Source: Opitutia bacterium
GTDB taxonomy: Bacteria > Verrucomicrobiota > Verrucomicrobiia > Opitutales > Opitutaceae
Assembly (NCBI GenBank): GCA_016217595.1
Contig: JACRHS010000010.1
Location: 62,001 to 126,000 of the forward strand
DNA length: 64,000 nt
Direction of reading: 5' to 3'
Each line of letters opens with the position of its first letter. The first letter of the stretch is position 1. This document shows positions 30,854 to 46,681 of the stretch, piece after piece. Under the pieces are notes generated by a model, which was not told the origin of the DNA, ran no database searches, and saw only the letters and a list, made by a program, of their open reading frames with translations. Both the position numbers and the translations under genes were made by a program.

Positions 30854-31933
30854 TCAGCCGACTTTGGCGTCCCAGACGCTGTCGTCGTCGTTGACGGGGA
30901 GCGAAACCGGCTGGTTGCGCGCCGCGGACTGGTACATCGCCAGGACGATTTCCAGGGTCGGACGCACCGAGGTCACCGGGATGATGACTTCGCGGTTCTG
31001 GTTGATCGCGTCGACCATGTCCTGGATGACTACCGCGTGGTCGGCATGACCGAGGTCGGCCGCGCCGGTGGCGCCGGTCGCTTGCGAGCCGCTGCCGTAG
31101 TTGCGGATTTCCGCATCTTCGGGACGGTCGTCACGGAATTTCCAGGCCGCGATCTTCTCACCGGTCATGATGGCGGTGCCATCGGTGCCGTTGATCTCGA
31201 TGCGGATGTCGGTGCCGGGCCACAATGCGGTGGAGGCTTCGACCACGCCTTGCGCGCCGCACTCGTAATCGAGGAACGCGAGCGTGGTGTCTTCGAGCTG
31301 CACCGAGGGATGCGCGATGTTGGTCATGCGCGCCTGCACTTTGCGGACCGGCCCGACGATGTATTGGAGCAGGTCGATGTAGTGGAAGGCGTGCTGCACA
31401 GTCACACCGGCGCCGGACTTGCGCGACATGCGCCACGCGTCCGACTGGTAATACTCCGTGGAACGGTACCACTTCATGTAGGTGTCGGCGTGGAGAATCT
31501 TGCCGAAGCGGCCGCTCTGCACGGCCTGGCGCATCGCCTGGACGGCCTTGCGGACGCGGCACTGCACGGTGCAGCCGAACTTGACGTTGGCTTTGCGGCA
31601 GGCGTCGACCATCTCGTCGGTGTCCTTGAGCGTCATCGCCGGCGGTTTCTCCGTGAGGACGTGTTTGCCGGCGGCGGCGCACTTGAGGACGGCGTCGCGG
31701 TGGAGGTGGTTCGGGAGGGCGACGTTGACGACGTCGATCTCCGGATCCTTCAGCATGTCGTCGAGGCTGTAGTAGGCCTTGACCTTGAACTCCGCGGCGA
31801 GCTTGTCGGCGCGGTCGCGGGCCATGTCGCAAACCGCCACGAGCTTGCCGCCCTTGGAGTCGCGCACTGCCTTGGCGTGAAAGGGAGCGATGATGCCCCC
31901 GCCGAGAATTCCAAATCCGATTGTTTTAGCCAT
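30854..31933 (-). CDS. Gfo/Idh/MocA family oxidoreductase (last gene of TetR-linked operon B)
   Basis: 359 residues, cytoplasmic. The Rossmann start IGFGILGGGIIAPFHAKAVRDS binds NAD(P), and the family motif EKP appears as LTEKPPAMTL near residue 95. The C-terminal beta-sheet domain includes GAGVTVQHAFHYIDLLQYIVG, where the His of HYID is a usual catalytic-site residue, and ends with the common VLAMYQSAARNQPVSLP. These enzymes oxidise or reduce sugar and cyclitol hydroxyls. It follows the alcohol dehydrogenase gene by 24 bp. No Shine-Dalgarno is visible at the ATG. Confidence 0.88.
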   Translation of the reverse strand: MAKTIGFGILGGGIIAPFHAKAVRDSKGGKLVAVCDMARDRADKLAAEFKVKAYYSLDDMLKDPEIDVVNVALPNHLHRDAVLKCAAAGKHVLTEKPPAMTLKDTDEMVDACRKANVKFGCTVQCRVRKAVQAMRQAVQSGRFGKILHADTYMKWYRSTEYYQSDAWRMSRKSGAGVTVQHAFHYIDLLQYIVGPVRKVQARMTNIAHPSVQLEDTTLAFLDYECGAQGVVEASTALWPGTDIRIEINGTDGTAIMTGEKIAAWKFRDDRPEDAEIRNYGSGSQATGATGAADLGHADHAVVIQDMVDAINQNREVIIPVTSVRPTLEIVLAMYQSAARNQPVSLPVNDDDSVWDAKVG

Positions 31934-31957: not shown

Positions 31958-32989
31958 TTAGGGGATCAACAGCGCCTTCAGGCCCTGCAATTTCTCGATG
32001 GCATCGAACGCCTCTTCCCATTTCGCCAGCGGCAGGCGGTGGGTGATGAGTTTTTCGGCGGGCACCAGTCCATTGTTGATCAGGCTGATGGTGCGGTCCC
32101 ACGAGGTGTAGCTGGTCGAGAGGTTGAAGATCACGTCGACGACCTTGAAGCTGAACTTGTCCCACGGAATCTCGACGTTGCGGTTGCCGGTGAGGCCGAT
32201 GACGCAAATCTTGCCGAGCTTGCGGACGAGGTCGATGGTGCCGGGGATCGCGCGGGGCGAGCCGCTGCACTCGATCACCATGTCGGCGCCGAGGCCGCCG
32301 GTCATGTCCTTGATGGCGTCAACGGGGTTCACCTCGCCGAGGTTGATGGTTTTGAAACCGAGCTCCTTCGCCTTCGCGAGGCGGAGGGTCACGTCGCCGG
32401 GCGTGCCGATCAGCACCACATCGCGGGCGCCGGCGGCGCGGGCCACCATGGCGGCGAGCAAACCGATCGGGCCGGGCCCGATCACCACGACGAAATCGCC
32501 GGGGGTGATCTTCGCGCGCTCAATGACGTCGGTCACGGCGTTGGCGGTGGGCTCGACGAGCGCACCCTGGTCGAAGCTCATCGTGTCGGGCAGATTGTGG
32601 AGCAACTTCTCCGGATAGCAGATGTACTTGGTCATGCCACCGTCGATGCCCCAGCCAGGCGAGCGCTTTTCCGGGCAAATCTGGATGTTGCCGGTGCGGC
32701 ACAGCGGGCACACGCCGCAGGCCTTGGTGTGCGGCTCGGCGACCACGCGCTGGCCGACCTTGGCGGAGCGGCACTCGGGGCCGACTTCGACGACCGTGCC
32801 GGTGAACTCGTGGCCGAGGATCACGGGCGGCCAGTAGGGAAATTCGTCGTGGCGCACGTGCACATCGGTGCCGCAGATGCCGCACGCGGCGATTTCGATC
32901 TTCACCTCGCCCGCCTTCGGGTTCGGCTCGGGAACGTCCCGAAGTTCGAGGAATCCTTTGCCTTTTTGAGTCTTAACGAGAGCTTTCAT
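31958..32989 (-). CDS. Zinc-dependent medium-chain alcohol/polyol dehydrogenase
   Basis: 343 residues. Catalytic zinc residues are Cys37 in CGICGTD and His-Glu in GHEFTG. The four-cysteine structural zinc loop is CGVCPLCRTGNIQICPE, and NAD-binding is VVVIGPGPIGLLAA. Overall it resembles threonine 3-dehydrogenase, sorbitol dehydrogenase and butanediol dehydrogenase. The loop WGIDGGMTKYICYPEKLLHNLPD is typical of polyol and threonine types. It may oxidise the hydroxyl of a sugar-derived intermediate made by the rest of the operon. The 123-bp gap to the upstream hydrolase gene contains two hairpins. Confidence 0.88.
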   Translation of the reverse strand: MKALVKTQKGKGFLELRDVPEPNPKAGEVKIEIAACGICGTDVHVRHDEFPYWPPVILGHEFTGTVVEVGPECRSAKVGQRVVAEPHTKACGVCPLCRTGNIQICPEKRSPGWGIDGGMTKYICYPEKLLHNLPDTMSFDQGALVEPTANAVTDVIERAKITPGDFVVVIGPGPIGLLAAMVARAAGARDVVLIGTPGDVTLRLAKAKELGFKTINLGEVNPVDAIKDMTGGLGADMVIECSGSPRAIPGTIDLVRKLGKICVIGLTGNRNVEIPWDKFSFKVVDVIFNLSTSYTSWDRTISLINNGLVPAEKLITHRLPLAKWEEAFDAIEKLQGLKALLIP

Positions 32990-33112: not shown

Positions 33113-34345
33113 TCAACCGCAGTAATCGCGCACGAACGTGGTCAGCAGGCACGCGGAGTCGGTCAGCTCTTTGAGCGAGAGCTGCTCGTCCTTCGAGTGT
33201 GCGACCTTGAGCGTGCCGGCGCCGTAAACGACCGTCGGGATGCCCACCTGGTTGTTGTAGAACCACGCGTCGCAGGAGGCGGTCATCGCGCCGACTTCGA
33301 GCGGCACGCCGGCCTGCTTCGCGCTGGCGAGGATCGCCTGCGGGAACGCATGCTTCGGATCGACCACGCTGCTGTCGTGCCGGTACATGAAGCTCAGCTC
33401 GAAATTCTTCGAGAAGAACTCGTCGCCGCCCTTGGCCAACGCCTGGCGCATACCTTCGCAGATCTGCTCCTTGGTTTTGTTGGGCAGGAGACCGAGCACG
33501 CCTTCCATCGACGCCCGGCTCGGGGCCGCCGCCGGCCAGTTGCCGGCTTGCAGCTTGCCGAAGGTGATCGGCATCGGGTTCGGGAACGGATCGAAGAGCG
33601 GCAGACCGCGCGAAGCGGCCAGCGTCTCGGCGTGGAACTTCTCGAGGATGGCGATGGCGTCACGCGCCATAAGGAGCGCGCTGCGGGTCTGGCCCGCCTG
33701 GCCGCTGTGGCCGGCCTTGCCATTGAACACGAGGCGGAACCAAACGGCGCCGCGGATCGAGGTGAAGAGCTTCCCTTCGGAGGCTTCGAGCACCATGCAG
33801 GCGTCGGCTTTTTCGCCGGTGCGCGCCATGGCGAGCGAGCCGTTGCCGCCGTTTTCCTCTTCGACAACGATGTGGCCGACGAGGTCGCCCTTGAGCTTGA
33901 TGTTGAGGGCGTCGAGCGCCTTCAGCATGAAGTAGAACAAAGCCACCTGACCCTTGTCGTCGCACGCGCCACGGCCGAACATGATGCCGTTTTCGACGCG
34001 CGGATTGTACGGGTCGATCTGCCCCTCGGAGGGAGGCACGACGTCGGTGTGGGCGTTGATGATAAGTTTTTTGCCGCCGCCGGTGCCCTTGCGGATCACG
34101 CGGAGGTTGAAGCGCCCGTCATAGTTGATGTCGGGCACGGGATCGGAGTAATCCGGATCCTTCTTGATGGCGTTGGAGAGCGGCACGCGCTCGACGGTGA
34201 CGCCGAGTTTGGCGAATTCGCGCTCGCAGAGCAGCATCACCTCGTGCTCCTGGCCGGGCACGGAGGGAAGGCGGATGAGATCGGCGAGAAACCGCTGCGC
34301 TTCGGGCAACAGTTTCTCCACGGTGGTACGGACAGCGTCGCTCAT
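33113..34345 (-). CDS. M20 family metallohydrolase (peptidase or N-deacylase)
   Basis: 410 residues. Metal ligands are in order: INAHTDVVPP (His and the catalytic Asp two residues on), GRGACDDKG (bridging Asp), VEEENGGNG (catalytic Glu then metal Glu), a later Asp/Glu, and AHSKDEQ (last His). The dimerisation domain interrupts as usual, with GKAGHSGQAGQTRSA. The architecture is that of ArgE/DapE/CPG2 enzymes, which remove an N-acyl group or cleave small peptides. The operon context (aminotransferase, hydroxyacid dehydrogenase) favours an N-acyl amino compound as substrate; that is inference. It lies 12 bp after the aminotransferase stop. Confidence 0.87.
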   Translation of the reverse strand: MSDAVRTTVEKLLPEAQRFLADLIRLPSVPGQEHEVMLLCEREFAKLGVTVERVPLSNAIKKDPDYSDPVPDINYDGRFNLRVIRKGTGGGKKLIINAHTDVVPPSEGQIDPYNPRVENGIMFGRGACDDKGQVALFYFMLKALDALNIKLKGDLVGHIVVEEENGGNGSLAMARTGEKADACMVLEASEGKLFTSIRGAVWFRLVFNGKAGHSGQAGQTRSALLMARDAIAILEKFHAETLAASRGLPLFDPFPNPMPITFGKLQAGNWPAAAPSRASMEGVLGLLPNKTKEQICEGMRQALAKGGDEFFSKNFELSFMYRHDSSVVDPKHAFPQAILASAKQAGVPLEVGAMTASCDAWFYNNQVGIPTVVYGAGTLKVAHSKDEQLSLKELTDSACLLTTFVRDYCG

Positions 34346-34357
34346 GGGTTGAGTGGC

Positions 34358-35680
34358 TTAGAGTTTCAGGCGGCTGAGCGCGCCTTCCATGATGGCGAGG
34401 CTCTCGTCGGCCTCGGCCTTGGTGATGACCAGCGGCGGCGCCACGCGGACGACGTTGCCGAACATGCCGACGGAACCGATGAGGAGACCGTGGTTGGCGC
34501 AATCGACGATGAGCGGCTTGATGAGCTCGGGCGCGGGCGTCTTGGTCTTCTTGTCCTTCACGAATTCGAGACCGATGATGAGGCCCATGCCGCGGACATC
34601 GCCGAGGTATTTGCACTTGGTCGCCATTTGCTTGAGACGCTTGAGCATGTAAGCGCCCATCTTGGCGGAGTTGGCGACGAGCGGCTCGCGCTCGTAAATG
34701 TCGAGGACGGCGCAGACCGCGGCGCTGGCCACGGGATTGCCGCCGAGCGTGCTCGAGAGCTCGCCCTTGCTGAGGCAGGAGAATACGTCAGACGTCGCCG
34801 CGACGGCGGAGACCGGCACGCCGCAACCGATGGCTTTGCCGATGGTCACGATGTCGGGCTTCAGATTTTCGTGCTCCAGCGCCCACATCTTGCCGGTGCG
34901 GCCGTAGGAGGCCTGCACTTCGTCGAGGGTGTAGAGCATGCCGCGCTTGCGCAGCCATTCTTCCAGCTTTTTCAGCCAGCCCTTCGGCGGGAAGATGAAA
35001 CCGCCCGCGCCTTGATACGGCTCGAGGATCGCGCCGCCCAAGCTGCCGGTCGAGTTGGCCGCGATGATGCCATCGAGGAATTCGAAGTAGCGCTTGAAGT
35101 CCGGACCGTCTTTGCACCAGCCGTTCGGATCGCGGTAGGGATTCGGGAACGGAGCGCGGATGATGCCGGGCACCGTGGGACCGTAGTTGCGCTTCGGGCC
35201 GGCCATGCCGCCCATCGAGGCGCCGTGCAGCGTGCGGCCGTGGAAGCCACACTCGAAGGAGAGGATTTCGAACTTGCCGGTCTTGCGCTTCATCAAGCGC
35301 GCAGCGGCTTCGGTCGCCTCACTGCCGGTGGAGAGGAAGAAGCACTTGTCGAGGTGCGGCGGGAGCGCTTTCACCAGACGCTCGGCGGCCTCGATGCGCT
35401 CGACGTTGGCGCACTCGTAATTGTTGAGGAGGCGGGTGGTGGCCTTCTGCGCCGCAGCAACGAGGTGCGGATGGCAGTGACCGACGTTGGTCACGAGCAC
35501 GCCGCAGGTCCAGTCGAGGTAGGTGTTGCCATCCACGTCGGTGACGACGCAGCCCTGGGCATGATCCCACACGACGGGAGCCTGGAAGCCGACGGCATCC
35601 GCTTCATATTTGTGCCATTTCTCCAACAGCACCTTCCCCTTGGGGCCGGGAAGCGGGCCTTTTACTTTGGCAATGCTCAT
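34358..35680 (-). CDS. Class III PLP-dependent aminotransferase
   Basis: 440 residues. PLP-binding Lys282 in TIGKAIGCG, cofactor-binding Asp253 in LDEVQASYGRTG, phosphate site STGSEATEAA (118-127), and GFHGRTLHGAS are all present. It belongs to the acetylornithine/4-aminobutyrate/alanine-glyoxylate transaminase group; the omega-amino donor or acceptor cannot be read. A strong Shine-Dalgarno AAAGGAG at 35688-35694 stands 7 nt before the ATG, one of the few in this window. The ATG overlaps the upstream dehydrogenase stop as ATGA (35677-35680), so the two proteins are made in coupled fashion. Confidence 0.9.
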   Translation of the reverse strand: MSIAKVKGPLPGPKGKVLLEKWHKYEADAVGFQAPVVWDHAQGCVVTDVDGNTYLDWTCGVLVTNVGHCHPHLVAAAQKATTRLLNNYECANVERIEAAERLVKALPPHLDKCFFLSTGSEATEAAARLMKRKTGKFEILSFECGFHGRTLHGASMGGMAGPKRNYGPTVPGIIRAPFPNPYRDPNGWCKDGPDFKRYFEFLDGIIAANSTGSLGGAILEPYQGAGGFIFPPKGWLKKLEEWLRKRGMLYTLDEVQASYGRTGKMWALEHENLKPDIVTIGKAIGCGVPVSAVAATSDVFSCLSKGELSSTLGGNPVASAAVCAVLDIYEREPLVANSAKMGAYMLKRLKQMATKCKYLGDVRGMGLIIGLEFVKDKKTKTPAPELIKPLIVDCANHGLLIGSVGMFGNVVRVAPPLVITKAEADESLAIMEGALSRLKL

Positions 35681-36669
35681 TTTTTCGCTCCTTTGAGAAT
35701 TTCTTTGTTCACCACGCAACGGGCGGGTTTGCCCTGGGAGAACGACATGACGTCATCGATGATGCTCTTGCGGATTTCCCAACCGGCTTCCTCGGACGCC
35801 CAGCCGATGTGCGGCGTGAGAATCGCGTTTTCCAAACCGAAGAGCGGGTGCGACAGCGGCGGCGGCTCGACGTCGAACACGTCGATGCCCGCGCCGGCGA
35901 TGCGCTTTTCGCGCAAGGCCTGGGCGAGCGCCTCGGCGTCGACCATGGGACCACGGGCGGTGTTCACGAGGAACGCGGTGGGCTTCATCCAAGAGAGCGC
36001 CTCGGCGTTGACGAGGTGACGCGTCTCGGGATTGAGCGGCGTGTGGATCGTGATGTAGTCGGCCTGCTGGAAGAGCGTCTTCTTGTCGACGAACTCGACA
36101 TCCATCGCCGCCTTCTGCTCGGCGGTGAGGTACGGGTCGGTCGCGATGATCTTCATGCCGAAATGCTTCATCTTGCGATGCACGCGGCTGCCGATGCGGC
36201 CCATGCCGACGATGCCGAGGGTCTTGCCATCCATGCGCTGGATGGGGAACAGCCCGGTGAAGTCCCATTGCCCGCGGGCGCTGGAGTCGTCGAGAATCTT
36301 GCGGCTCTGCACGACCTTGCGGGCGCAGGCGAAGATGAGCGCGATGGCGTGCTCGGCGACGTCTTCTTTGCAGTAATCGGGTTGATAGGCGAACTGGATG
36401 CCCTGCTTGGTGCAGGCGGCGACATCCACGTTGTCATAACCAATGCCGTGCCGGATGAGCAGCTTGCACTTGGTCAGTTTCGACACGAGCGACGCGTCGA
36501 ATTTCACCATGTTGACGACGATGACGTCGGCATCCTGGATCTTGGCGAGGACTTCGGCCTCGGGTTTGAACTTGAGCTGGTACGCGGCGAACTCGATGCC
36601 AGCCTTGCGGCACTGCTCGGCCTCCCAGTCCAGGTTTTCTTCGATGTAATCGGTGACGACGACTTTCAT
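35677..36669 (-). CDS. D-isomer-specific 2-hydroxyacid dehydrogenase (CtBP-like)
   Basis: 330 residues. The NAD-binding motif is GIVGMGRIGSRVHRKM. Catalytic Arg is in NTARGPMVD, Glu in FDVEPPP and His in LTPHIGW. The N-terminal catalytic domain begins MKVVVTDYIEENLDWE and resembles the C-terminal-binding-protein/phosphoglycerate dehydrogenase-like branch. It is expected to interconvert a 2-oxoacid and a D-2-hydroxyacid. A good ribosome site GAAAGGAA (36675-36682) overlaps the stop of the preceding Gfo/Idh gene. It is translationally coupled to the aminotransferase downstream. Confidence 0.9.
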   Translation of the reverse strand: MKVVVTDYIEENLDWEAEQCRKAGIEFAAYQLKFKPEAEVLAKIQDADVIVVNMVKFDASLVSKLTKCKLLIRHGIGYDNVDVAACTKQGIQFAYQPDYCKEDVAEHAIALIFACARKVVQSRKILDDSSARGQWDFTGLFPIQRMDGKTLGIVGMGRIGSRVHRKMKHFGMKIIATDPYLTAEQKAAMDVEFVDKKTLFQQADYITIHTPLNPETRHLVNAEALSWMKPTAFLVNTARGPMVDAEALAQALREKRIAGAGIDVFDVEPPPLSHPLFGLENAILTPHIGWASEEAGWEIRKSIIDDVMSFSQGKPARCVVNKEILKGAKK

Positions 36670-36680
36670 GGTTGTTCCTT

Positions 36681-37796
36681 TCAAGATTTGACGGCCACCC
36701 AGCGTTTCTCGGCGGCAGCCTGATACACTGCCTCGACGACGCGCAGCGCTGCAACGCCATCCTCGCCGGTGATCGGCGGCTCGTTGCCGGTCAGCACGGA
36801 TTGGGCAAAAGCCTGGATGTACTCGCGACCCATGTAGCCGGAGTAGCCCTTCACGGCCTCCAGCTCGAACTCCATGGCGCGGCGCGGCGAACCCGTCATG
36901 CTGGGATCGTCGCTGCAAATGTGCAGCACGTCCTTCTGACCCTCGTACGCAGGGGACCACGAAAGCACGCCGCGCGTGCCGCGGATCGAGATGTACAGAT
37001 CGCGACCGTACGGGAAGCTGTCCGGCACGGTGTAGCTGATATCGAGCGCCACGGTCGCGCCCTTGGCGAATTGCAGATGGGCGAAGGAATTGTCCTCGAT
37101 GTCGTAGCGGGTGTTGATCTTCACGTTGCGACCGGAGACTTCGGCCACTTCGTCCTGCAACATCCAGCGGAAAAGATCGATCCAGTGCACGCCGAGGTTG
37201 TAGATCGGCCCGCCGCCGGACTTGGCTTTTTCCAGCATCCACGGCGAGTTGCCGTCGATGTAGCGCGTCAACCGGCCCGCGGCGCAACGGCCTTCGCCGC
37301 CGATCACCTCGCCGATCACGCCGCTGGCGATGAGGCGCTTGATCTCGCGCGCCACCGGATGCAACCGCCAGCAATAGCCGGTGGTCATCTTCAACCCGGC
37401 GCGCCGGACTGCCGTCACGATGGACTGGGCGCTGTTGGCGCTCGCCGCCACGGGCTTCTCCACCATCACGTGCACACCCTTTTCCGCGCAACGGATCGCC
37501 GCGGTGGCGCAGTCGACGTGGGGCAAAAAGATCGCCGCAATGTCGGGCTTCTCCTTTTTCAACATCGCATCGAGATCCGCATACGGCGTGACCCCGAATT
37601 CCTTGGCGAATGCTTCGCGCATCGCAGCATTTTGCTCCACCACGGCCACCGCGCGAGTGGCGGGGATCATGGCGAAAAGCGGCATGTACGAGCGCGGGTG
37701 CAGATGCCCGAGGCCGACAATGGCCACTTTCAATACCTTATCCGATCCAGCGGCGATTTTGCCTTGGGCCGGCTTGCGGGAAGTTGCGGAGGACAT
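36681..37796 (-). CDS. Gfo/Idh/MocA family oxidoreductase (first gene of TetR-linked operon B)
   Basis: 371 residues. After about 20 polar residues comes the Rossmann motif VAIVGLGHLHPRSYMP. The family EKP motif is VMVEKPVAAS, and the catalytic-domain signature is GGGPIYNLGVHWIDLFRWML. Distinct from the other two Gfo/Idh proteins in this cluster by its GLGHLH cofactor loop. First gene of a six-gene operon, with the palindrome GTAACC-N4-GGTTAC 36 bp upstream of its ATG. The substrate is unknown; a carbohydrate or cyclitol is likely from the family. Confidence 0.88.
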   Translation of the reverse strand: MSSATSRKPAQGKIAAGSDKVLKVAIVGLGHLHPRSYMPLFAMIPATRAVAVVEQNAAMREAFAKEFGVTPYADLDAMLKKEKPDIAAIFLPHVDCATAAIRCAEKGVHVMVEKPVAASANSAQSIVTAVRRAGLKMTTGYCWRLHPVAREIKRLIASGVIGEVIGGEGRCAAGRLTRYIDGNSPWMLEKAKSGGGPIYNLGVHWIDLFRWMLQDEVAEVSGRNVKINTRYDIEDNSFAHLQFAKGATVALDISYTVPDSFPYGRDLYISIRGTRGVLSWSPAYEGQKDVLHICSDDPSMTGSPRRAMEFELEAVKGYSGYMGREYIQAFAQSVLTGNEPPITGEDGVAALRVVEAVYQAAAEKRWVAVKS

Positions 37797-37832: not shown

Positions 37833-37848
37833 GTAACCGCATGGTTAC
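37833..37848. promoter_or_regulatory. Candidate TetR operator 1 (operon B)
   Basis: GTAACC-GCAT-GGTTAC, a perfect palindrome with a 4-bp centre, 36 bp before the ATG of the first operon B gene (36681-37796, minus). A weak -35-like TTGCAT (minus strand, 37864-37869) lies 16 bp upstream of the TAACCA that begins the site. The same motif occurs at three other regulatory positions in the cluster. Confidence 0.75.
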
Positions 37849-37944
37849 GTTCGGCCCCAACGGATGCAACCCCAAAATACCGGTTTGTACAGGAATTTTG
37901 CTTCCATTTACTTTTCTGGCTCTTACGCCATTTTATACCACCCG

Positions 37945-37970
37945 CCACCGACCGGGCGAACGGTCGGTGG
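37945..37970 (-). terminator. Hairpin at the 3' end of operon A
   Basis: Perfect 10-bp stem CCACCGACCG (37945-37954) / CGGTCGGTGG (37961-37970), loop 6 nt, 10 bp after the stop of the Gfo/Idh gene at 37981. No T run follows, so it may be a Rho-assisted terminator or a 3' stabiliser. It separates operon A from operon B. Confidence 0.5.
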
Positions 37971-37980
37971 CACTTCGGGC

Positions 37981-39162
37981 TCACAACTGCGGTACCGGCA
38001 CCTCGGCCCCACGCCGCTCATCGGAGAGATACGCGGCATAGACGGCGGCCGTGGTGTCGAGCGCGAGGTCCAGACCCGATTGAGGCGCCCGGCCGCTGGC
38101 GGCGCTGGACACGAAATCCTCGATCTCGGGCTGGTAGCCCATCGTGAAATTTTCGTCGGGTGCGGCCGGCGACCAGCCTTCCTTGGTGCTGACTTTTTCG
38201 ACGGTGTACACGTCCTTGAATTGCTCGCCGCGCGGATTGTAGGTGTCGACCAGACCGGTCGGGCTGATGCGGCAGCGTGTGCGATGGTTGTTCGCGAAGA
38301 CCTCGATGTAATCGTAGATGCCGCCGAGCGAGATCTCGCTCGTCATCACATCGCCCACCGTGCCGTCCTCGAACACCACATGGATGAAGCCGTAATCCTC
38401 GATGTCGTGGTAATCGGTGCGAATCAGCTTGAGGTCGCGATAGCCAGGCAGCCGCGTGATCTGGTGCGTGCGGGCGCTCACCGCCACCGGGCGAATCGGC
38501 TTGCCGTCGCGCGCGAGTCCCTCGACGCGTTTCAGGTAAAGCATACCGCCGAGCGGATGACAGCCCTTGCCGATGAGCGAGCCGCCGCCGGCAAAACGCC
38601 AGATGCCGTACACGGGCGAAGCCGAGCCGTTGTGCGACTCGTCGCCGGTCATGCGCAAAATCTGTGCGCCGGTTTTCTCCACAATCTCGCGCTCCTTCTG
38701 CACGCTGGGCGCGTAGACGAAGTTTTCGGCGTAACCAAAAAACACCCCGCTCTTCCGCACCGCGGCGGCGATGCGCTGCATGCGGGCCACCGACTCGTCC
38801 AACATCTTCTGTTTGGAATCGCGGTCGCCGCGATAGCTCTCGTCGGCGCCTTCCGGTCCAAAATAGCCCGTGAGCGGCTTCTCGCAGATGATGCCCTTGC
38901 CCGCCTGCGCGGCGGCGATGATGCCGTCCTCGTGCGCGTATGGCGGCGAGCAGATGTCGAGCAAATCGACGCGTTCGAGCATCGCCTCGACGCTGTCGAA
39001 AACCGGCAAGCCGTGCGTGCGACCGAAAGCCTCGCGACTCTCGCGCCGCTTGGAAGTGACGCCGGCGATTTCAATCCGCGCGCCATAGACGCGACGCAGA
39101 CATTCGACGTGATAGCGCCCGGCAAAACCGGTGCCGACAATGCCAATACGAAGAGTTTTCAT
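37981..39162 (-). CDS. Gfo/Idh/MocA family oxidoreductase (last gene of operon A)
   Basis: 393 residues. Rossmann motif IGIVGTGFAGRYHVECLRRV, and ICEKPLTGYFGPEG, which holds the EKP motif plus an unusual insertion after it. The catalytic region is GGGSLIGKGCHPLGGMLYLKRV, with His in GCHPLG and Lys in IGKGCH. The C-terminal part ends with LALDTTAAVYAAYLSDERR. The ATG at 39162 gives the canonical N-terminus; in-frame upstream sequence overlaps the GH2 gene and is not protein-like. It lies 37 bp downstream of the GH2 gene, so both act in the same pathway. Confidence 0.88.
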   Translation of the reverse strand: MKTLRIGIVGTGFAGRYHVECLRRVYGARIEIAGVTSKRRESREAFGRTHGLPVFDSVEAMLERVDLLDICSPPYAHEDGIIAAAQAGKGIICEKPLTGYFGPEGADESYRGDRDSKQKMLDESVARMQRIAAAVRKSGVFFGYAENFVYAPSVQKEREIVEKTGAQILRMTGDESHNGSASPVYGIWRFAGGGSLIGKGCHPLGGMLYLKRVEGLARDGKPIRPVAVSARTHQITRLPGYRDLKLIRTDYHDIEDYGFIHVVFEDGTVGDVMTSEISLGGIYDYIEVFANNHRTRCRISPTGLVDTYNPRGEQFKDVYTVEKVSTKEGWSPAAPDENFTMGYQPEIEDFVSSAASGRAPQSGLDLALDTTAAVYAAYLSDERRGAEVPVPQL

Positions 39163-39199
39163 GGGAAAGATAGACTGTTCTCGCCGCTGCACCCACCGT

Positions 39200-42100
39200 T
39201 CACCGCGGACTCGCGGCAACCGGATCGGGCGACGGTTCAGCGTCCAGGCTGAGCCCGGCGAGGCTGGCATGCGGATCACCATCGAAGCCGCTGTCAATCT
39301 CCAGCTCCGCGGCCACCGCCGTCACGGGCTGATCCAGCCGGATGGTTTTTGCCGCCGCATCCCGGACAAACTCGGCCGACTTCTCGACGGGCGTTTTGCT
39401 GTCGGCGCACTCCCACAGTCGCAACGTCACCGTGCGCGGCAGCCCGATGGTTTTTCCATCCTGCCGCGGCAACAATTGCACGGCCCGCACCGTCAGCGGC
39501 CGGGCAAACGCGAGGCTGAGCTTGTAGGGGTGATGCGGCGTTTGCGTCACCATCCAGCTCGATTGCCAGAGCGTGGCGGGATCGTCATCGAGCAAGTTGC
39601 CCACCGGGCAACCGGGCAGGGAAACCGCCGTGTCAACCGTGACGCCGAGGCGGTCGGCTGCCGTTAACGGACGCACCAGCGCGCGCAATTCCGCCAACGT
39701 CATCCCGGTCTGCGGCATGAAATCGGGGCCGGCCATGTAGCGCAGCAAACTCGCGCGCATCTGCCGCGCCACGGGGCGCTGATCCAATTGCGAGGTCAGA
39801 TCGGCGGCACACGCAATCAACCGGCCGGCGCCGACGCGCGCCTCGAAAATCAGGCCGAGCTTTCGCGCGGTCACCCAGTCGTCGATGACTTGCACGATCG
39901 GGTTCAGCTCGCGTTGCGCGGTGAGAATGAACGGCGCGCCCTCGCGCACCAGATCCCACCATTGGAAATTGCTGTGATACTCGGTGGGGAAATCCGCCAG
40001 CGCCGGATGCCGCGGATCGCAGAAAATGCCAAGCGTGTGCGGCGGCTGGCCATCGGTCCAGGCGGTGTTCCAGAAAATCGATGAGAACCCCATTTTCACC
40101 GCGCCGTACTGCGGGTCGCCCTTGATTTGGCGGGCGGGCGGCAGCCACAACACCCTGCCCCCGGCGCGCAGCCGGGCCTCGGCCGCCGCGTCGAGTTCGT
40201 GGACCACGACCACATCGGCCGGCGCCATCGTTTCGATGCGCGCCGGATAAACCCAAAACTCCCAGGAATTGATCGCATCGGTGTCCGCGATGCGCACCTC
40301 CAGCGTGAGCTTGCGCGCCGGTCCGTCGGTAAGCGGGAACGCGATTTCGCCAAGCTTGATCAACTCGCCGGTGCGCAGCGTTGCGCCTTCAGCCAGTCGG
40401 CCTTCGGCGAGATTTCTCCCCGCGGAATCATGGATCCGCCAGAGCGCCGGCCCCGTCAGATCGCGCGGACCAAATTGCGCCAGCTCGATGGCGGCCGTGA
40501 ACGTTTCCCCGCCGGTGAAAATCATGCGCGGCAAACGCGCCAGCGGCACCACCGGGCCGGAGAACCGCCGGTACTCTTCTGCGGTGATGTAGCCCTTCGA
40601 TTCCCAGAACACATCGAGCACGCCGACCAGCGCCGTGCCCTGGCCGGGGAAATCGTGCAGGTCGAGCAACTGGAATCCGCCCAAACCCGGCGTGCGCAGG
40701 CAGGCCTCGTTGTCGGCCTTGTAGCAAAGCGCCTGGAGTTTGCCCGAGGCCATCAGAAAGTCGTGCGCATACGGGAGGAGGCCGTTGCGCTCGGCGCGTT
40801 CGCGGAAGATCTCAAAGTTTTTCGCCTGAAAAAGCCCGGTGTACTTGGCGATCTCTTCAAAGTTCGGATAAGCACACCATTGGCCGATTTCGTGACTGAT
40901 CGTCGGCCCCGGAGGCAATTCCGCCAGGCACGCGGTCCAGTCGTAATCGGAGCGGGGCGGCTGGCTGTTGATGATGCTCTTGAGGCCCTGCAGCCATTGC
41001 TGGATGCGCGGGGTGGACCAGCTGTGAAAATCGCTGCCCGCACACACCGGCCAGCCAGACCCGGTGGTATAGAGCCGGCGTGAATCGGTCGCCTGCCAGC
41101 GGGCGACGAAACGCTCCAACCAGGCGACGTGATTGGGGCCGGACGGCTCGTTGCCATAGGCCATAAAGGCGAATGACGGATGGTTGCCATACGCGCGCAC
41201 GATGGCCTCGGCCTCGGCTTCATTCCAAGCATCCACCGGTTTGCCGCTGCCAATCTCCGCGCCCTGGTTGCACCAGGCCGAACACTCGACCTGGTAGTAA
41301 AAACCCAGCTCGTCGCCCACCTCGAAGGCGGCCTCCGGCGGACACCACGAGTGAAAACGCAGATGATTGAGCCCGTGCGCGCGGGCGATTTCGAGAATGC
41401 GCCGCCAGCTGGCCTGGTCGGTCGGCGGATGCCCCGCCAGAGGGAAGATCGCGCATTCCAGCGTACCGCGCAGAAACGTCGGACGACCGTTGACCGTGAT
41501 CCGCGCACCCTGCCGACCCATCTCGCGCAGACCGAAACGCAACCGCCGCGTATCCGTCCCTCGGGCACCGGCAAACGTCAGCTCCAGTTCGTACAGATGC
41601 GGGTTGAACTCATCCCACAACCGTGCCGCGTCGCCGAAAGCCAGCGTCAGCTCGGCCGCGCCCGCCGCGGCCGTGGCGGTGGCGTGAACCTCCTGCACAA
41701 ACGCTTGCGGGCCGACATACCGCGCGACCGCCGTCACCGCCCCGCTCGCTTCTCCACCGATACGGACGGCGACCCGGGCCGCGCGATCTTTGATGGAGGG
41801 AAAAACGCGCACGTCCTCGATCCACGCCGGCGCCGTTGCGCGGAGTTCGATGCGACCGATTACGCCATTCCAATTGCCCTGCGTGTAATCGGTGATGCTG
41901 TGACTCAACGCGCCGAGGTTGATGATGGTTCGGTTGTCGACCCGCAGCGTCAGCGTGTGGCGGCCGGGTGCGAGTTGCGTGCCCAGATCGTATTCATGCG
42001 GCACGCCGAGCCGGTCATTGCGCCCGATCAACGCGTCGTCGAGCCACACCATCGTCTCCCAGTGCGCTCGTTCGAGAAAGAGCGTGATGCGCCGCCCAAC

Positions 42101-42445
42101 CCACGCTGCCGGAATCTCAATCTCGCGCTGATACCACGCCGCGCCGACGTAGTGCTGGCGCGGCTGCAACCAGTATGGGATTTTGAAATTCTCCGGCGTC
42201 TGGTACTGGCGGTAGTAGGGATCGTTACCCCACATGGGCGAGAAATCGCCAGTCCACTGGGTGTGCATCCCCACGGTGTCCCCCAGCCCCTGCGCAGCCA
42301 CGGCGCCCGGCAGCTGAATGCGCGCTGGAACTTGCGCGCGCATCCACGCCGGGCCGGAGCCGGTATTGCCGCGGTCGAGAGCGAAACGCCACTCACCGGC
42401 AAGGGAGGTTAGCTCGCTTTGACTGGTGGGTGGTGATGCAGACAT
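39200..42445 (-). CDS. Glycoside hydrolase family 2 protein
   Basis: 1081 residues without signal peptide, so apparently cytoplasmic. It has a sugar-binding jelly-roll (about 10-205: AAWYQREIEIPAAWVGRRITLFLERAHWETMVWLDD), an immunoglobulin-like domain (210-310) and a TIM barrel (from 315). The acid/base Glu433 is in AYGNEPSG and a candidate nucleophile Glu519 in ISHEIGQW. A region from about 960 to 1065 (VRAVQLLPRQDGKTIGLPRTVTLRLWEC) looks like a divergent F5/8C domain. The HEIGQW form of the nucleophile motif differs from classical beta-galactosidase and beta-glucuronidase, so the linkage cut is unknown. It follows the propeller gene by 27 bp. Confidence 0.88.
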   Translation of the reverse strand: MSASPPTSQSELTSLAGEWRFALDRGNTGSGPAWMRAQVPARIQLPGAVAAQGLGDTVGMHTQWTGDFSPMWGNDPYYRQYQTPENFKIPYWLQPRQHYVGAAWYQREIEIPAAWVGRRITLFLERAHWETMVWLDDALIGRNDRLGVPHEYDLGTQLAPGRHTLTLRVDNRTIINLGALSHSITDYTQGNWNGVIGRIELRATAPAWIEDVRVFPSIKDRAARVAVRIGGEASGAVTAVARYVGPQAFVQEVHATATAAAGAAELTLAFGDAARLWDEFNPHLYELELTFAGARGTDTRRLRFGLREMGRQGARITVNGRPTFLRGTLECAIFPLAGHPPTDQASWRRILEIARAHGLNHLRFHSWCPPEAAFEVGDELGFYYQVECSAWCNQGAEIGSGKPVDAWNEAEAEAIVRAYGNHPSFAFMAYGNEPSGPNHVAWLERFVARWQATDSRRLYTTGSGWPVCAGSDFHSWSTPRIQQWLQGLKSIINSQPPRSDYDWTACLAELPPGPTISHEIGQWCAYPNFEEIAKYTGLFQAKNFEIFRERAERNGLLPYAHDFLMASGKLQALCYKADNEACLRTPGLGGFQLLDLHDFPGQGTALVGVLDVFWESKGYITAEEYRRFSGPVVPLARLPRMIFTGGETFTAAIELAQFGPRDLTGPALWRIHDSAGRNLAEGRLAEGATLRTGELIKLGEIAFPLTDGPARKLTLEVRIADTDAINSWEFWVYPARIETMAPADVVVVHELDAAAEARLRAGGRVLWLPPARQIKGDPQYGAVKMGFSSIFWNTAWTDGQPPHTLGIFCDPRHPALADFPTEYHSNFQWWDLVREGAPFILTAQRELNPIVQVIDDWVTARKLGLIFEARVGAGRLIACAADLTSQLDQRPVARQMRASLLRYMAGPDFMPQTGMTLAELRALVRPLTAADRLGVTVDTAVSLPGCPVGNLLDDDPATLWQSSWMVTQTPHHPYKLSLAFARPLTVRAVQLLPRQDGKTIGLPRTVTLRLWECADSKTPVEKSAEFVRDAAAKTIRLDQPVTAVAAELEIDSGFDGDPHASLAGLSLDAEPSPDPVAASPR

Positions 42446-42472
42446 GAGAGGGCTGACTAACTGAGAGGAACA

Positions 42473-44464
42473 TCAAGGCGTGTACTGCCAGAGTTCCGGA
42501 CCGTCGGAGAAATAAACGCGTCCGGCGCGATCGATCGCCAGCGAACGGGTGTGGGTTTGCTTCACGGTCTTGCGCAAGATCGTCACAGCCTTGGTTGCCG
42601 GATCCAGGCTGAAGAAACAGCCTTCCTCGAAGCCGTAGATGAGCTTGTTCGGGTGAATGGCGAGAGCGGCGTCTTGCCAGGCGGCTTGCTTGGTGAAGTC
42701 CGGCTGCATGATTTCCTTGGTGAATTTGACCTCCCGGCTCTTGAGGTCGAAGCCAAAGAGCGTGCCGGCGGCTACGCCCCAAATCAGACCGTCCGGTCCA
42801 CGCATCAGACCCGAAACAATCATTTTGCCCGGAACTGGGATCAGTTCGCACAACTTTTGACCAGCCTTGGGATCGAACACGAAAAGCTTGCCCTCTTTTT
42901 CCGTCGGTTCGATGCCCAGCCCGCCCGCGACGGTCGTACCACCCACCAGCAGGCCATCGACGGCGAGCAGACTCGCGACCGACTGCTTCTCCACAAATTT
43001 CGGGAGCCAGGTCAGTTTGTCGGTGGCGAGATCGCAGACACCGAGCGCTCCACCGAGAATGCCGTACTCGGGGATGTTGCCGATGTAGAGTTTTCCGACT
43101 TCCGGCACCACCGCCATCGCGATGGGGCGGCTCTGATCCTCCATCTGGCCGAGCGACTTCGGCCGCCACGGCTTGGCCGTTTCCTGCACAAACAGGCGGC
43201 CGCGCGGATAGATGCCAAAAAAGAGCCGGTCACCAACGGCCTCGATATGCTCCGCCTGCGACAGATTGCGGAATTGCTCGGTCTTGCCCGTTTGTGGGTC
43301 GAACGCCGCCGCGCCGCCCGAAAGGTATCCACCCATCCACAACCGACCGTCCGGCCCCAGCACGAGCGACTGGATCACGCTGGGCTGCTCGGGCACATTG
43401 ACGGCCCATGTCTTCATTTTGCCGGTCGGGGGATGGTAAGTGATGACGCGCCCATCCATGTTATAAATCGCCAGCGACAGCCCGGCGTCTTTCGGCTCCA
43501 CCTGGAGCCAGGTCATGGTCAGCACATTGGTCACCGCCCCAACGCTGGCTGGCGCCTTCTCCGGTTGCGCCGGATCGAACGCCATCAACTTGCCGCCTTC
43601 GCAATAGTAAACCCGGCCATCGTAGGGCGAAGCCGGGCTCACCAATTGATAAAGCCCGCTCTTCTTGAACGTGGTCTCCAGCTTCCGTGTCTTGCGATCA
43701 AACACCAGCACGAGCTGGTCTGGTGCCAACATGCCGAATACACGATCACCGACGACTGAGAGCGTGTAGACGCTTTGCGATTTCAAATACTGGGCGGGCA
43801 GCATGTCGGTCTTGGCTCCCGTGTTCAGGTCGATCTCAACCAGATGGGGCGTGCTGGTGCCGATGCCGACATAGAGTTTGTGGTCGTCGGCATAAGCGAT
43901 GGAGCGGGCATACTGCTGGCCGGGCACCACCGGACCGTTGGCCACATCTTCAAAACCCTTGGACGGCGAATAGCGGAACGCCCGACCGTTGGGATAGGTG
44001 CCGCCATAAATCTCGTCGCCTTTGCCTGCCGTCAGATCCCACACGAAAGTCTCTTCGGGAAACGGCCGGCCCAAATCGCGCACGGCTTTTTCACCCGGCA
44101 CAAAACGAAACACTTTGCCGTTGTTTTCCGTACCGATGTAGACGGAGCCATCTTTGGCGGTCACCGCGCCCCAAGCCCCGTTGGCGCCTTCAAGCGAATA
44201 CGTCCCGATCACATCGCCGCTCAACGCATCGGCCACGACCAGCTTGGCGCAAGGCTGACTGCGCACGACCGTGCAAAGCAGCTGGTGCCCCGCAGCATCG
44301 CGCGTGAAGGCACTGCCCTGAAATGTGCGCGACGTCAGCTGCGCCCCCAAGTTCACAAAAGGGCTCGGTTTACCCGCCTTCTCCTCGGCAAACAGGGCGA
44401 GCGCAGGCATGGCGGCCATCAACAACAAGCTAAGCAATGGTTTAATACCACTAAAGATGTTCAT
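42473..44464 (-). CDS. Exported beta-propeller protein (first gene of operon A)
   Basis: 663 residues with a signal peptide (...LLLMAAMPALALFA). The rest is a chain of propeller blades such as GAVTAKDGSVYIGTENNGKVFRF, YADDHKLYVGIGTSTPHLVEIDL, LVLGPDGRLWMGGYLSGGAAAFD and MAVVPEVGKLYIGNIPEYG. At least ten such blades are visible, so it may form two propellers. It lacks PQQ-binding tryptophan docking and Asp boxes, so I do not call it a dehydrogenase or sialidase; it could be a lyase or a glycan-binding protein. A motif matching the candidate TetR operator lies 120 bp upstream. It may be extracytoplasmic while the GH2 enzyme is cytoplasmic. Confidence 0.75.
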   Translation of the reverse strand: MNIFSGIKPLLSLLLMAAMPALALFAEEKAGKPSPFVNLGAQLTSRTFQGSAFTRDAAGHQLLCTVVRSQPCAKLVVADALSGDVIGTYSLEGANGAWGAVTAKDGSVYIGTENNGKVFRFVPGEKAVRDLGRPFPEETFVWDLTAGKGDEIYGGTYPNGRAFRYSPSKGFEDVANGPVVPGQQYARSIAYADDHKLYVGIGTSTPHLVEIDLNTGAKTDMLPAQYLKSQSVYTLSVVGDRVFGMLAPDQLVLVFDRKTRKLETTFKKSGLYQLVSPASPYDGRVYYCEGGKLMAFDPAQPEKAPASVGAVTNVLTMTWLQVEPKDAGLSLAIYNMDGRVITYHPPTGKMKTWAVNVPEQPSVIQSLVLGPDGRLWMGGYLSGGAAAFDPQTGKTEQFRNLSQAEHIEAVGDRLFFGIYPRGRLFVQETAKPWRPKSLGQMEDQSRPIAMAVVPEVGKLYIGNIPEYGILGGALGVCDLATDKLTWLPKFVEKQSVASLLAVDGLLVGGTTVAGGLGIEPTEKEGKLFVFDPKAGQKLCELIPVPGKMIVSGLMRGPDGLIWGVAAGTLFGFDLKSREVKFTKEIMQPDFTKQAAWQDAALAIHPNKLIYGFEEGCFFSLDPATKAVTILRKTVKQTHTRSLAIDRAGRVYFSDGPELWQYTP

Positions 44465-44584
44465 TTTTTGTTTGTTTTAAGGGTTCTACTGTCTGCGTGT
44501 ATGGTACTCTGCCTTTATTCGACGTACGACCCGGACAAAATGTCTAAACCCCGCAAAAGATTCGCGGTTATGCGCTCGCTTTAA

Positions 44585-44600
44585 TTAACCTTACAGTTAC
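44585..44600. promoter_or_regulatory. Candidate TetR operator 4 (operon A)
   Basis: TTAACC-TTAC-AGTTAC: the core TAACC-N4-GGTTA with one mismatch (A for G). It is 120 bp upstream of the propeller ATG (minus) and 259 bp from operator 2. It is the weakest of the four copies. Confidence 0.5.
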
Positions 44601-44834
44601 TTATTTACGCGCCATCACGCAAGCGATTTCGCGCCCAAAATCCTGGTCACGCCCACGCATCTCGCAGATCTGGTTGCACCTCGCACCTTGGGCGGTGCCC
44701 GCCAGTGAGCGCTCCATCCATTCACTATCAACGCGGGCACCAGCGAATTTTCCGGCTGGATCACCGCCGCCATGACACATCATTATTTACTCGTTGTTAT
44801 CCATTTAAGATATTATGCGGCCATCGCCAAGTTT

Positions 44835-44874
44835 TTGCTTGTGTCCACGCCATTTCTTATAACCATCTGGTTAC
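44835..44874 (+). promoter_or_regulatory. Promoter of the epimerase-like gene with overlapping TetR operator 2
   Basis: -35 TTGCTT (44835-44840), 17-bp spacer, -10 TATAAC (44858-44863). The palindrome ATAACC-ATCT-GGTTAC (44859-44874) covers the -10 box and the presumed start site, so bound repressor would block polymerase. The ATG follows 4 bp after the palindrome, implying a leaderless or very short-leader mRNA. Confidence 0.75.
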
Positions 44875-44878
44875 TTTT

Positions 44879-45937
44879 ATGAGCAGTTCCGCCGCAGTAT
44901 CGTCATCCCTCCCGAGTTTGCCCTGCCCGCCCGAGCGGGTGGACGATTTTCTCAGCCAGCCCACGCCGGCCGTGGTGGACGTGTTGGCGCGCCGGCCAGG
45001 ACCGGTGCTCGTACTTGGCGCCGGCGGCAAGATGGGGCTGCACATGTGCCTGATGTTGCGCAAGGCGCTAGATCGGGCTGGCAGCAAGGATCCCGTCACC
45101 GCGGTATCGCGCTTCAGCTCATTGCAGGATCGCTCCAGTTTTGAACAATACGGCGTTGCCACCCTGCCCTGTGACCTCACCGATGCCGCCAGTTTGGAAC
45201 GTCTGCCCGAGGCGCCGACGGTGTTTTTCATGGCCGGAGTGAAGTTCGGCACATCCTCGTCGCCCACGCTGCTCAAGGCCATCAACTCGGACATGCCGCG
45301 CTCGGTGGCGGCTCGGTTCCGGCGCTCGCGGATCGTGGCTTATTCGACCGGCTGCGTTTATCCCTTCGTGCCCGTTACCTCCGGTGGCGCAACCGAAGAC
45401 ACCCCGCCGGCCCCCGTCGGCGACTATGCAGTGTCGTGCCTCGCCCGCGAACAGGCGTTCGCGGAAGCCGCGCAGAAATTTGGCACGGCGGTGGCGCTGA
45501 TTCGTCTCAATTATTCGGTGGAGTTCCGCTATGGCGTGCTCGTCGACATCGCCCAAAAAGTGCTGAGCGGGCAACCGGTGGACGTGACCATGGGGCATGT
45601 GAACGTGATCTGGCAGCCCGATGCGATTGCACACAGCATCCTGGCGTTGGAGCTGGCCGGTTCGCCGGCGGTCCCGGTGAATGTCACGGGTATCGAGACT
45701 TTGGCCGTGCGCGATCTGGCGCAACGGTTCGCAAAGGTGTTTGATCGCCCGGTGCAAATCGTCGGTCGCGAAGAGCCCACGGCGTGGTTGAACAATGCTG
45801 CGCGCACTCACCAACGCTTTGGCGCGCCGTCCACCTCAGTCGACACGATGATCCGCTATATCGCGGCTTGGTTGACAAACGGTGGCACCACATGGGGCAA
45901 ACCCACGGGTTTCGAGAAACGCGACGGCAAATTCTGA
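44879..45937 (+). CDS. NAD-dependent epimerase/dehydratase-like SDR lacking the catalytic lysine
   Basis: 352 residues, extended short-chain dehydrogenase fold. NAD motif GAGGKMG is at 47-53; RIVAYSTGCVYPF supplies the Ser/Thr step (156-157). The active-site Tyr183 is in GDYAVSCLA, but the residue four along is Cys187, not Lys, so the YxxxK motif is broken. The segment NVIWQPDAIAHSILALELAG matches substrate-binding parts of sugar nucleotide epimerases. It may be an altered-chemistry or non-catalytic member. It is directly controlled by the overlapped promoter-operator at 44835-44874, and is divergent from operon A. Confidence 0.8.
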   Translation: MSSSAAVSSSLPSLPCPPERVDDFLSQPTPAVVDVLARRPGPVLVLGAGGKMGLHMCLMLRKALDRAGSKDPVTAVSRFSSLQDRSSFEQYGVATLPCDLTDAASLERLPEAPTVFFMAGVKFGTSSSPTLLKAINSDMPRSVAARFRRSRIVAYSTGCVYPFVPVTSGGATEDTPPAPVGDYAVSCLAREQAFAEAAQKFGTAVALIRLNYSVEFRYGVLVDIAQKVLSGQPVDVTMGHVNVIWQPDAIAHSILALELAGSPAVPVNVTGIETLAVRDLAQRFAKVFDRPVQIVGREEPTAWLNNAARTHQRFGAPSTSVDTMIRYIAAWLTNGGTTWGKPTGFEKRDGKF

Positions 45938-45953
45938 TCGCCGCAGACTAAAA

Positions 45954-45988
45954 AGGCCAGTCGCGGCACAATCGCCTGCGGCTGGCCT
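45954..45988 (-). terminator. Terminator of tetR
   Basis: Stem AGGCCAG-T-CGC (45954-45964) pairs with GCG-G-CTGGCCT (45978-45988). Read on the minus strand it is followed by TTTTT. It also has A tracts on its other side, so it may act on the convergent epimerase-like transcript too. Confidence 0.75.
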
Positions 45989-46007
45989 AAAAAAACTCGG
46001 CGTAACT

Positions 46008-46658
46008 TTACGCCGTTTGGGGTTGGGTGGCGCAGATGCCGTCGAAAACCAAACCGAGCACGTGTTTCAACCCCACGGCTTTCACCTCGGTCGCCCCCAG
46101 ATCCATGTTCAGGCTGTGCGAGAGCGAGAACCGGTTGGAATGATAAATGAAGCACAAGCCGATGAAATGAATTAGCAGATGCGGGATATTCAGATCCTTG
46201 CGGAACACTCCCGATGCGATGCCATCTTCGATGAGCTGGCTGAACCGCTGGAGGAAAGGATCTTTGCTCAACATGTGGTTGCGCTTGTCGATGTGCTGCC
46301 CCTTCTCGAGATTTTCCCACTGCAGGAGCTGCGTAAACTCGGGATTCTTATCGAGAAACTCGAAGTAGCTTTCGATCAGCCCGGTCAGCTTTTCGCGCGG
46401 TGTCCCGCCCCGCTGCATCGCGTCGAACTCGATCGTTTCGATGCGGGCATACACCTTTTGGAGCGCCGCCTGGAACAACGCCTCCTTGCTGCCAAAGTAG
46501 TGGTACACCATCCGCTTGTTGATCTTCGCCGCTGAGACGATCTCGTCGACCGACACCGCGTGATAACCATGGCGGGCAAAAAGACGGATCGCCGTGTCGA
46601 GGAGGCGACGGCGAGTGCGTTCTGCATTGCGATGAACCGGACGGCGTGGGGGAGTCAT
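46008..46658 (-). CDS. TetR family transcriptional regulator
   Basis: 216 residues. The HTH is at about 37-61: VDEIVSAAKINKRMVYHYFGSKEAL, a clear TetR signature. The N-terminal MTPPRRPVHRNAERTRRRLLDTAIRLF is basic. The ligand domain has FELDKNPEF-like helices (SYFEFLDKNPEFTQLLQWENLEKGQ) and resembles the group annotated TetR_C family near PF17938. It lies at the end of the cluster, and the palindrome GTAACC-GCGG-GGTAAC is 7 bp before its ATG. The same palindrome stands in front of the operons around it, so it probably represses them and itself. The inducer is unknown. Confidence 0.9.
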   Translation of the reverse strand: MTPPRRPVHRNAERTRRRLLDTAIRLFARHGYHAVSVDEIVSAAKINKRMVYHYFGSKEALFQAALQKVYARIETIEFDAMQRGGTPREKLTGLIESYFEFLDKNPEFTQLLQWENLEKGQHIDKRNHMLSKDPFLQRFSQLIEDGIASGVFRKDLNIPHLLIHFIGLCFIYHSNRFSLSHSLNMDLGATEVKAVGLKHVLGLVFDGICATQPQTA

Positions 46659-46665
46659 ATTACAA

Positions 46666-46681
46666 GTAACCGCGGGGTAAC
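46666..46681. promoter_or_regulatory. Candidate TetR operator 3 (autoregulation)
   Basis: GTAACC-GCGG-GGTAAC, one mismatch (GGTAAC for GGTTAC) from the operon B and epimerase sites. It ends 7 bp upstream of the tetR ATG at 46658 (minus strand), the same close geometry as operator 2. It sits after a possible -35 TTGGCT (minus strand, 46705-46710 region). Confidence 0.65.

Follow-up and report, generated by a model that had tools for sequence, protein, structure and literature searches.

A palindrome, RTAACY-N4-RGTTAY, as the predicted operator of a TetR-type regulator at a sugar-type breakdown locus of an Opitutaceae bacterium

Sugar regulons, for example those of the LacI family, have been reconstructed by comparative genomics (PMC4052901). 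Control of such loci by TetR-type proteins was called unusual in a previous sequence-only reading of the DNA studied here, but it has a precedent in E. coli, where GusR/UidR is a TetR-type repressor of the glucuronide operon that is relieved by glucuronides (PMC9881133). Our locus lies in a 64,000-nucleotide stretch of an Opitutaceae genome (the window) and combines a tetR gene with copies of one palindrome. As with the LacI-family regulons (PMC4052901), the case is built on the conservation of a palindrome and of its targets, and on their occurring together with the regulator; here TetR takes the place of LacI, and Verrucomicrobiota the place of the usual model groups. The likeness to GusR/UidR is a predicted TetR-family repressor with operators before a sugar-derivative catabolic operon. 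However, the genes and the operator are different, and the window TetR has several predicted operons, with sites far from its own gene.

Two other TetR-family regulators invite comparison. Structures of RutR, the pyrimidine-use regulator of E. coli, are among the PDB profile matches of the window TetR (E about 1e-15), and the half-sites of the RutR site, TGACC-N4-GGTCA, are spaced as in TAACC-N4-GGTTA. The half-site and the targets are nevertheless different, and the test for RutR failed (NCBIfam equivalog, 45.8 bits against a cut-off of 368). The top NCBIfam score of the window TetR was for Bacillus-type FadR, a TetR regulator of fatty-acid genes, but that test also failed, its 61.9 bits being far under the cut-off of 200, and the window targets are sugar-type genes rather than fatty-acid genes. 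Every NCBIfam equivalog score of TetR was far under its cut-off. Literature searches for the motif together with TetR, and for TetR regulons of Opitutus or Verrucomicrobia, returned nothing that deals with this operator or regulon. As a kind, the system is an ordinary one; the regulator-operator pair, the regulon and its breadth appear to be undescribed in the literature searched.

The regulator and its candidate sites in the window

The tetR gene (46008-46658, minus strand) encodes 216 amino acids with an N-terminal helix-turn-helix domain (PF00440, TetR_N; 69.5 bits against a cut-off of 24) and a C-terminal ligand/dimer domain (PF17938, TetR_C_29; 90.1 bits against 26.2). Its recognition helix, NKRMVYHYF, is kept in orthologs, and NKRM[VL]YHY is invariant among those we aligned.

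All four palindrome positions given by the sequence-only reading (37833, 44585, 44859 and 46666) were correct, each stands upstream of a gene, and the window holds no further copy with up to one mismatch, as had been claimed. The motif proposed at that time, GTAACC-N4-GGTTAC, is real, but we rejected it as the full consensus: in many relatives the inner positions are T/A and the outer ones A/T, which widens the consensus to RTAACY-N4-RGTTAY and leaves the earlier motif as one version of it. The conserved part of the sites near TetR orthologs of relatives is RTAAC-N6-GTTAY, with a pyrimidine/purine pair at the inner flank, while the spacers and surrounding DNA vary freely between genomes. With up to one mismatch, the earlier 14-mer was found 4 times, against a mean of 0.22 and a largest count of 2 in 60 shuffles that kept the dinucleotide content of the window; the refined consensus GTAACYNNNNRGTTAC at the same tolerance was also found 4 times (mean 0.02, largest 1).

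Predicted operator 1 (37833-37848, minus strand; GTAACCGCATGGTTAC) is exact and stands 37 bp before operon B. It had been called perfect, and it is so over the full 16-mer; on the minus strand, a -35-like TTGC begins some 22 bp ahead of it. Predicted operator 2 (44585-44600, minus strand; TTAACCTTACAGTTAC) lies 121 bp before operon A, likewise about 22 bp after a TTGC element. The single mismatch reported for it holds for the inner 14 bases and against the refined consensus, but it has two mismatches in the 16-mer. Because the conserved part is RTAAC-N6-GTTAY with an adjoining pyrimidine and purine, we regard it as nearly a full site. With perfect ends, the same core (GTAACCTTACAGTTAC) also precedes a heparinase-like gene elsewhere in this genome, on contig C9. 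Predicted operator 3 (44859-44874, plus strand; ATAACCATCTGGTTAC) is exact to RTAACYNNNNRGTTAY. The perfection claimed for it extends across the inner 14 bases, but not to the complete GTAACC-N4-GGTTAC 16-mer. As had been noted, it lies on the -10 box of the epimerase promoter, overlying the TATAAC of TTGCTT-17 bp-TATAAC, and it has the same position in several orthologs. Predicted operator 4 (46666-46681, minus strand; GTAACCGCGGGGTAAC) has the one mismatch reported for it and stands 7 bp before the tetR ATG at 46658.

Operator 3 precedes an NAD-dependent epimerase/dehydratase-like gene (44879-45937, plus strand; 352 aa, PF01370), a target that is conserved across relatives. The longest open reading frame begins at GTG 44705 and would swallow the promoter. 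We rejected that start because orthologs share the N-terminus and the site-to-ATG distance, and we place the start at ATG 44879, which gives a very short leader and puts the operator 4 bp before the start.

Operons A and B are on the minus strand. Operon A comprises a 663-aa beta-propeller-like protein (DUF5074/Reg_prop; 42473-44464), a GH2-type protein of 1081 aa (39200-42445) whose top NCBIfam match, exo-beta-1,4-galactosidase BT4151, is under its cut-off, and a Gfo/Idh/MocA oxidoreductase (37981-39297). Judging from its overlap with the second gene, this third gene probably starts at about 39165, past the end of its neighbor. Operon B consists of a 371-aa Gfo/Idh/MocA oxidoreductase (36681-37796), a D-isomer 2-hydroxyacid dehydrogenase (35677-36666, start approximate), a class III aminotransferase (34358-35719), an M20 family deacylase/peptidase (33113-34345), a zinc alcohol dehydrogenase resembling threonine 3-dehydrogenase (under its cut-off; 31958-32989) and another Gfo/Idh/MocA oxidoreductase (30854-31933). 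The whole is a predicted sugar-type breakdown locus. Operons A and B were not found beside tetR in relatives, where matches were weak and at the level of paralogs, so the case for their control comes from this one genome.

Association of the site with TetR in relatives

A TetR ortholog is present in 22 of 141 relatives and the epimerase in 50. Exact copies of GTAACYNNNNRGTTAC occur in 20 of the 22 genomes with TetR and in 18 of the 119 without it. Summed over genomes, the 22 with TetR have 73 exact sites against 41 in controls, and the 29 that lack TetR and have the epimerase have 25 against 82.

The epimerase gives the sharpest comparison. Every genome with both TetR and the epimerase (21/21) has a site with up to one mismatch within about 130 bp of an epimerase start, ten of them exact, whereas the 30 epimerase loci of genomes without TetR all lack one, their closest match having at least three mismatches. 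The refuting outcome named earlier for close relatives was thus not seen: those that keep the gene and the regulator also keep the site. Random windows of the same size drawn from epimerase loci contain a site in 2.5% of cases, a figure inflated by real sites. Second epimerase copies in three genomes with TetR are without a site. On the epimerase tree the presence of TetR changes about seven times (only 6-7 independent changes), and site and TetR agree in all of the approximately four informative independent pairs and are never opposed, which alone gives p = 0.125. The sequence-only reading had assigned the palindrome to the adjoining TetR as operator of the epimerase gene, both operons and tetR itself. 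Co-occurrence (21/21 against 0/30) argues for that assignment, while for both operons and for the site before tetR, control is predicted from motif and position in this genome.

The amidohydrolase, encoded far from tetR, provides a second, independent sequence-level test of the association. An exact site stands upstream of six copies in five genomes with TetR and of 0 of 17 copies in genomes without it; eleven further copies in TetR-containing genomes stand without one. In TetR-less relatives such as G066, G074, G023, G016 and G057, the epimerase gene is often near an amidohydrolase gene and divergent from it, so the two probably work together, under other control in those genomes.

One relative stands apart. 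The 83% complete draft of G035 carries 19 exact copies of GTAACYNNNNRGTTAC (L060, L083-L096, L103-L116) against one in the reversed control, and no ortholog of the window TetR and no epimerase were found in it. Its sites precede unrelated genes (HSP70, LptD and Ig-domain proteins), and several are inside genes.

Sites elsewhere in the genome and in other phyla

Genome-wide scans used sequence patterns with reversed controls and not a weight matrix. Exact RTAACYNNNNRGTTAY occurs seven times in the genome (3.59 Mb, 68% complete) against 0 reversed controls, and all seven are upstream of genes. Two are the window sites before operon B (37833) and the epimerase (44859). The other five are before a TonB receptor followed by a sodium:solute symporter (contig C19), a 1058-aa protein akin to a heparinase-II/III-like protein (C9; 23% identity, E 2e-15), glutamate dehydrogenase (C15) and two PF04909 amidohydrolases that are 64% identical to each other (C3 and C32). 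The even genomic scatter that had been named as a refuting outcome was not seen: of the 14 sites with up to one mismatch, 4 are no more than 9 kb from tetR, and among the remaining 10, 8 are intergenic. The clustering is in line with the local regulon proposed from the window, but the five exact sites on other contigs mean that the regulon is not only local.

Weaker sites in the genome precede a GH78-type rhamnosidase, divergent from a periplasmic binding protein, and an MFS transporter. A one-mismatch site, GTAACCAATGGGTTAA (L048:9772-9787; G000:C19:286771), stands 158 bp ahead of genes for a membrane complex that resembles NADH dehydrogenase or hydrogenase, and may be due to chance. In relatives, sites are also found before heparinase-like genes (L036, L124), DegT aminotransferases (L036, L127) and a DHDPS-type gene (L198).

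The TetR alignment was used to scan named genomes and picked out 80 loci; the recognition helix was one of two search patterns, so its presence at these loci is partly built in. Their 842 kb contain 69 exact sites spread over 56 loci, with 0 in the reversed control, and among half-site pairs with gaps of 0-19, 70 of 86 have a gap of 6. In 28 of the 80, tetR has an exact site in the 200 bp upstream of it; in the window, 7 bp separate the palindrome from tetR. We propose a subfamily defined by its operator (RTAACYNNNNRGTTAY), recognizable by the NKRM[VL]YHY helix and the presence of a nearby operator (56/80 loci with an exact site, control 0).

Exact sites were found in Spartobacteria, Planctomycetota, Desulfosporosinus, Desulfofundulus, Sporotomaculum, Acuticoccus and others. 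TetR relatives from outside Verrucomicrobiota, including those of Planctomycetota and Bacillota, are 33-40% identical and keep the recognition helix. An Oscillospiraceae MAG (Bacillota) has the operator, an epimerase 42% identical to that of the window, a DHDPS-type protein and TetR in that order. Epimerase, DHDPS-type protein and TetR adjoin, with the operator in front, in two Bacillota MAGs (L342:3881-6615 and L331:3708-6630), an arrangement that suggests movement of this module between phyla. In a Desulfotomaculum MAG (L325:5947-8797), the operator and the TetR group stand before transport genes of the HlyD and ABC-2 types; helix and operator are therefore kept while the targets change. A planctomycete has the site beside TetR with fumarylacetoacetate hydrolase as the neighboring gene.

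Proposed mechanism, alternatives and significance

Our main reading, to which we assign a probability of roughly 0.9, is that RTAACY-N4-RGTTAY is the predicted operator of the TetR-type repressor encoded at 46008-46658, which would block promoters until an inducer binds. The palindrome is very probably the landing site of TetR because site and DNA-reading helix occur together in dozens of bacteria, some of them distant, and frequently ahead of similar genes. A TetR dimer on the palindrome would cover the promoter, as at 44859, where site and -10 box overlap. The epimerase gene, both operons and tetR would thereby be held off until an inducer freed the promoter; this inducer would most likely be an intermediate formed when these genes break down a sugar, an amino sugar or a uronate. 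The five further exact sites would place the two amidohydrolases, the heparinase-II/III-like protein, glutamate dehydrogenase, and the TonB receptor with its sodium symporter under TetR as well. The sites, their positions, their co-occurrence with TetR and the conservation of the helix are read directly from the DNA; from them we infer binding, inducer and substrate, and the TetR family is our model for repression and for induction by a pathway intermediate.

Promoter architecture bears on the sign of regulation. In relatives the site follows a TTG(A/C) -35-like element by about 15-24 bp, or it stands directly before a -35-like element and ends about 6 bp ahead of it. In either layout, a bound dimer would be placed to exclude RNA polymerase. 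The second might also suit a TetR that activates, or acts both ways, instead of only repressing: in four loci (L039, L040, L041 and L044) the site is just upstream of a -35-like TTGAC, 22-23 bp from the start of the site. We consider this improbable, however, as the window and many relatives have the site on the -10 region or a few bases from the start codon, positions suited to blocking, and most characterized TetR-type regulators are repressors.

It is still less probable that the palindrome belongs to another, unlinked regulator and that TetR merely travels with the genes. G035, with its many exact copies and no detectable TetR ortholog, may have another reader of the word, but in other phyla the site stays beside TetR despite different neighboring genes (the Desulfotomaculum MAG and the planctomycete), and the epimerases of TetR-less genomes are without it. 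That the four palindromes are chance look-alikes or a repeat lacking function is a reading that two imperfect window sites might invite, and we reject it as next to impossible given the shuffle enrichment, the zero reversed-control sites in 842 kb of TetR loci, the retention of sites in relatives whose spacers and flanks vary freely, and the epimerase co-occurrence and 80-locus scan.

With TetR as the predicted repressor, the gene set, which comprises the epimerase, the DHDPS-type protein, the amidohydrolase, the M20 deacylase and the heparinase-like proteins, leads us to a tentative proposal, for which we see a little under an even chance: that a single regulator-operator pair, shared by Bacillota and Verrucomicrobiota, marks out an undescribed regulon whose genes break down an acidic or amino-sugar polysaccharide. 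If so, genes still missing from an unknown pathway could be traced through the operator. Little has been described of the regulons of Verrucomicrobiota, and in this case the sequence itself, backed by strong internal controls, lets regulator, operator and targets be read. Following the operator leads to unlinked genes (amidohydrolases, heparinase-like proteins and a TonB receptor) that probably belong to one uncharacterized breakdown pathway, and recognition helix and operator together would give a simple annotation rule for a group of TetR proteins across phyla.
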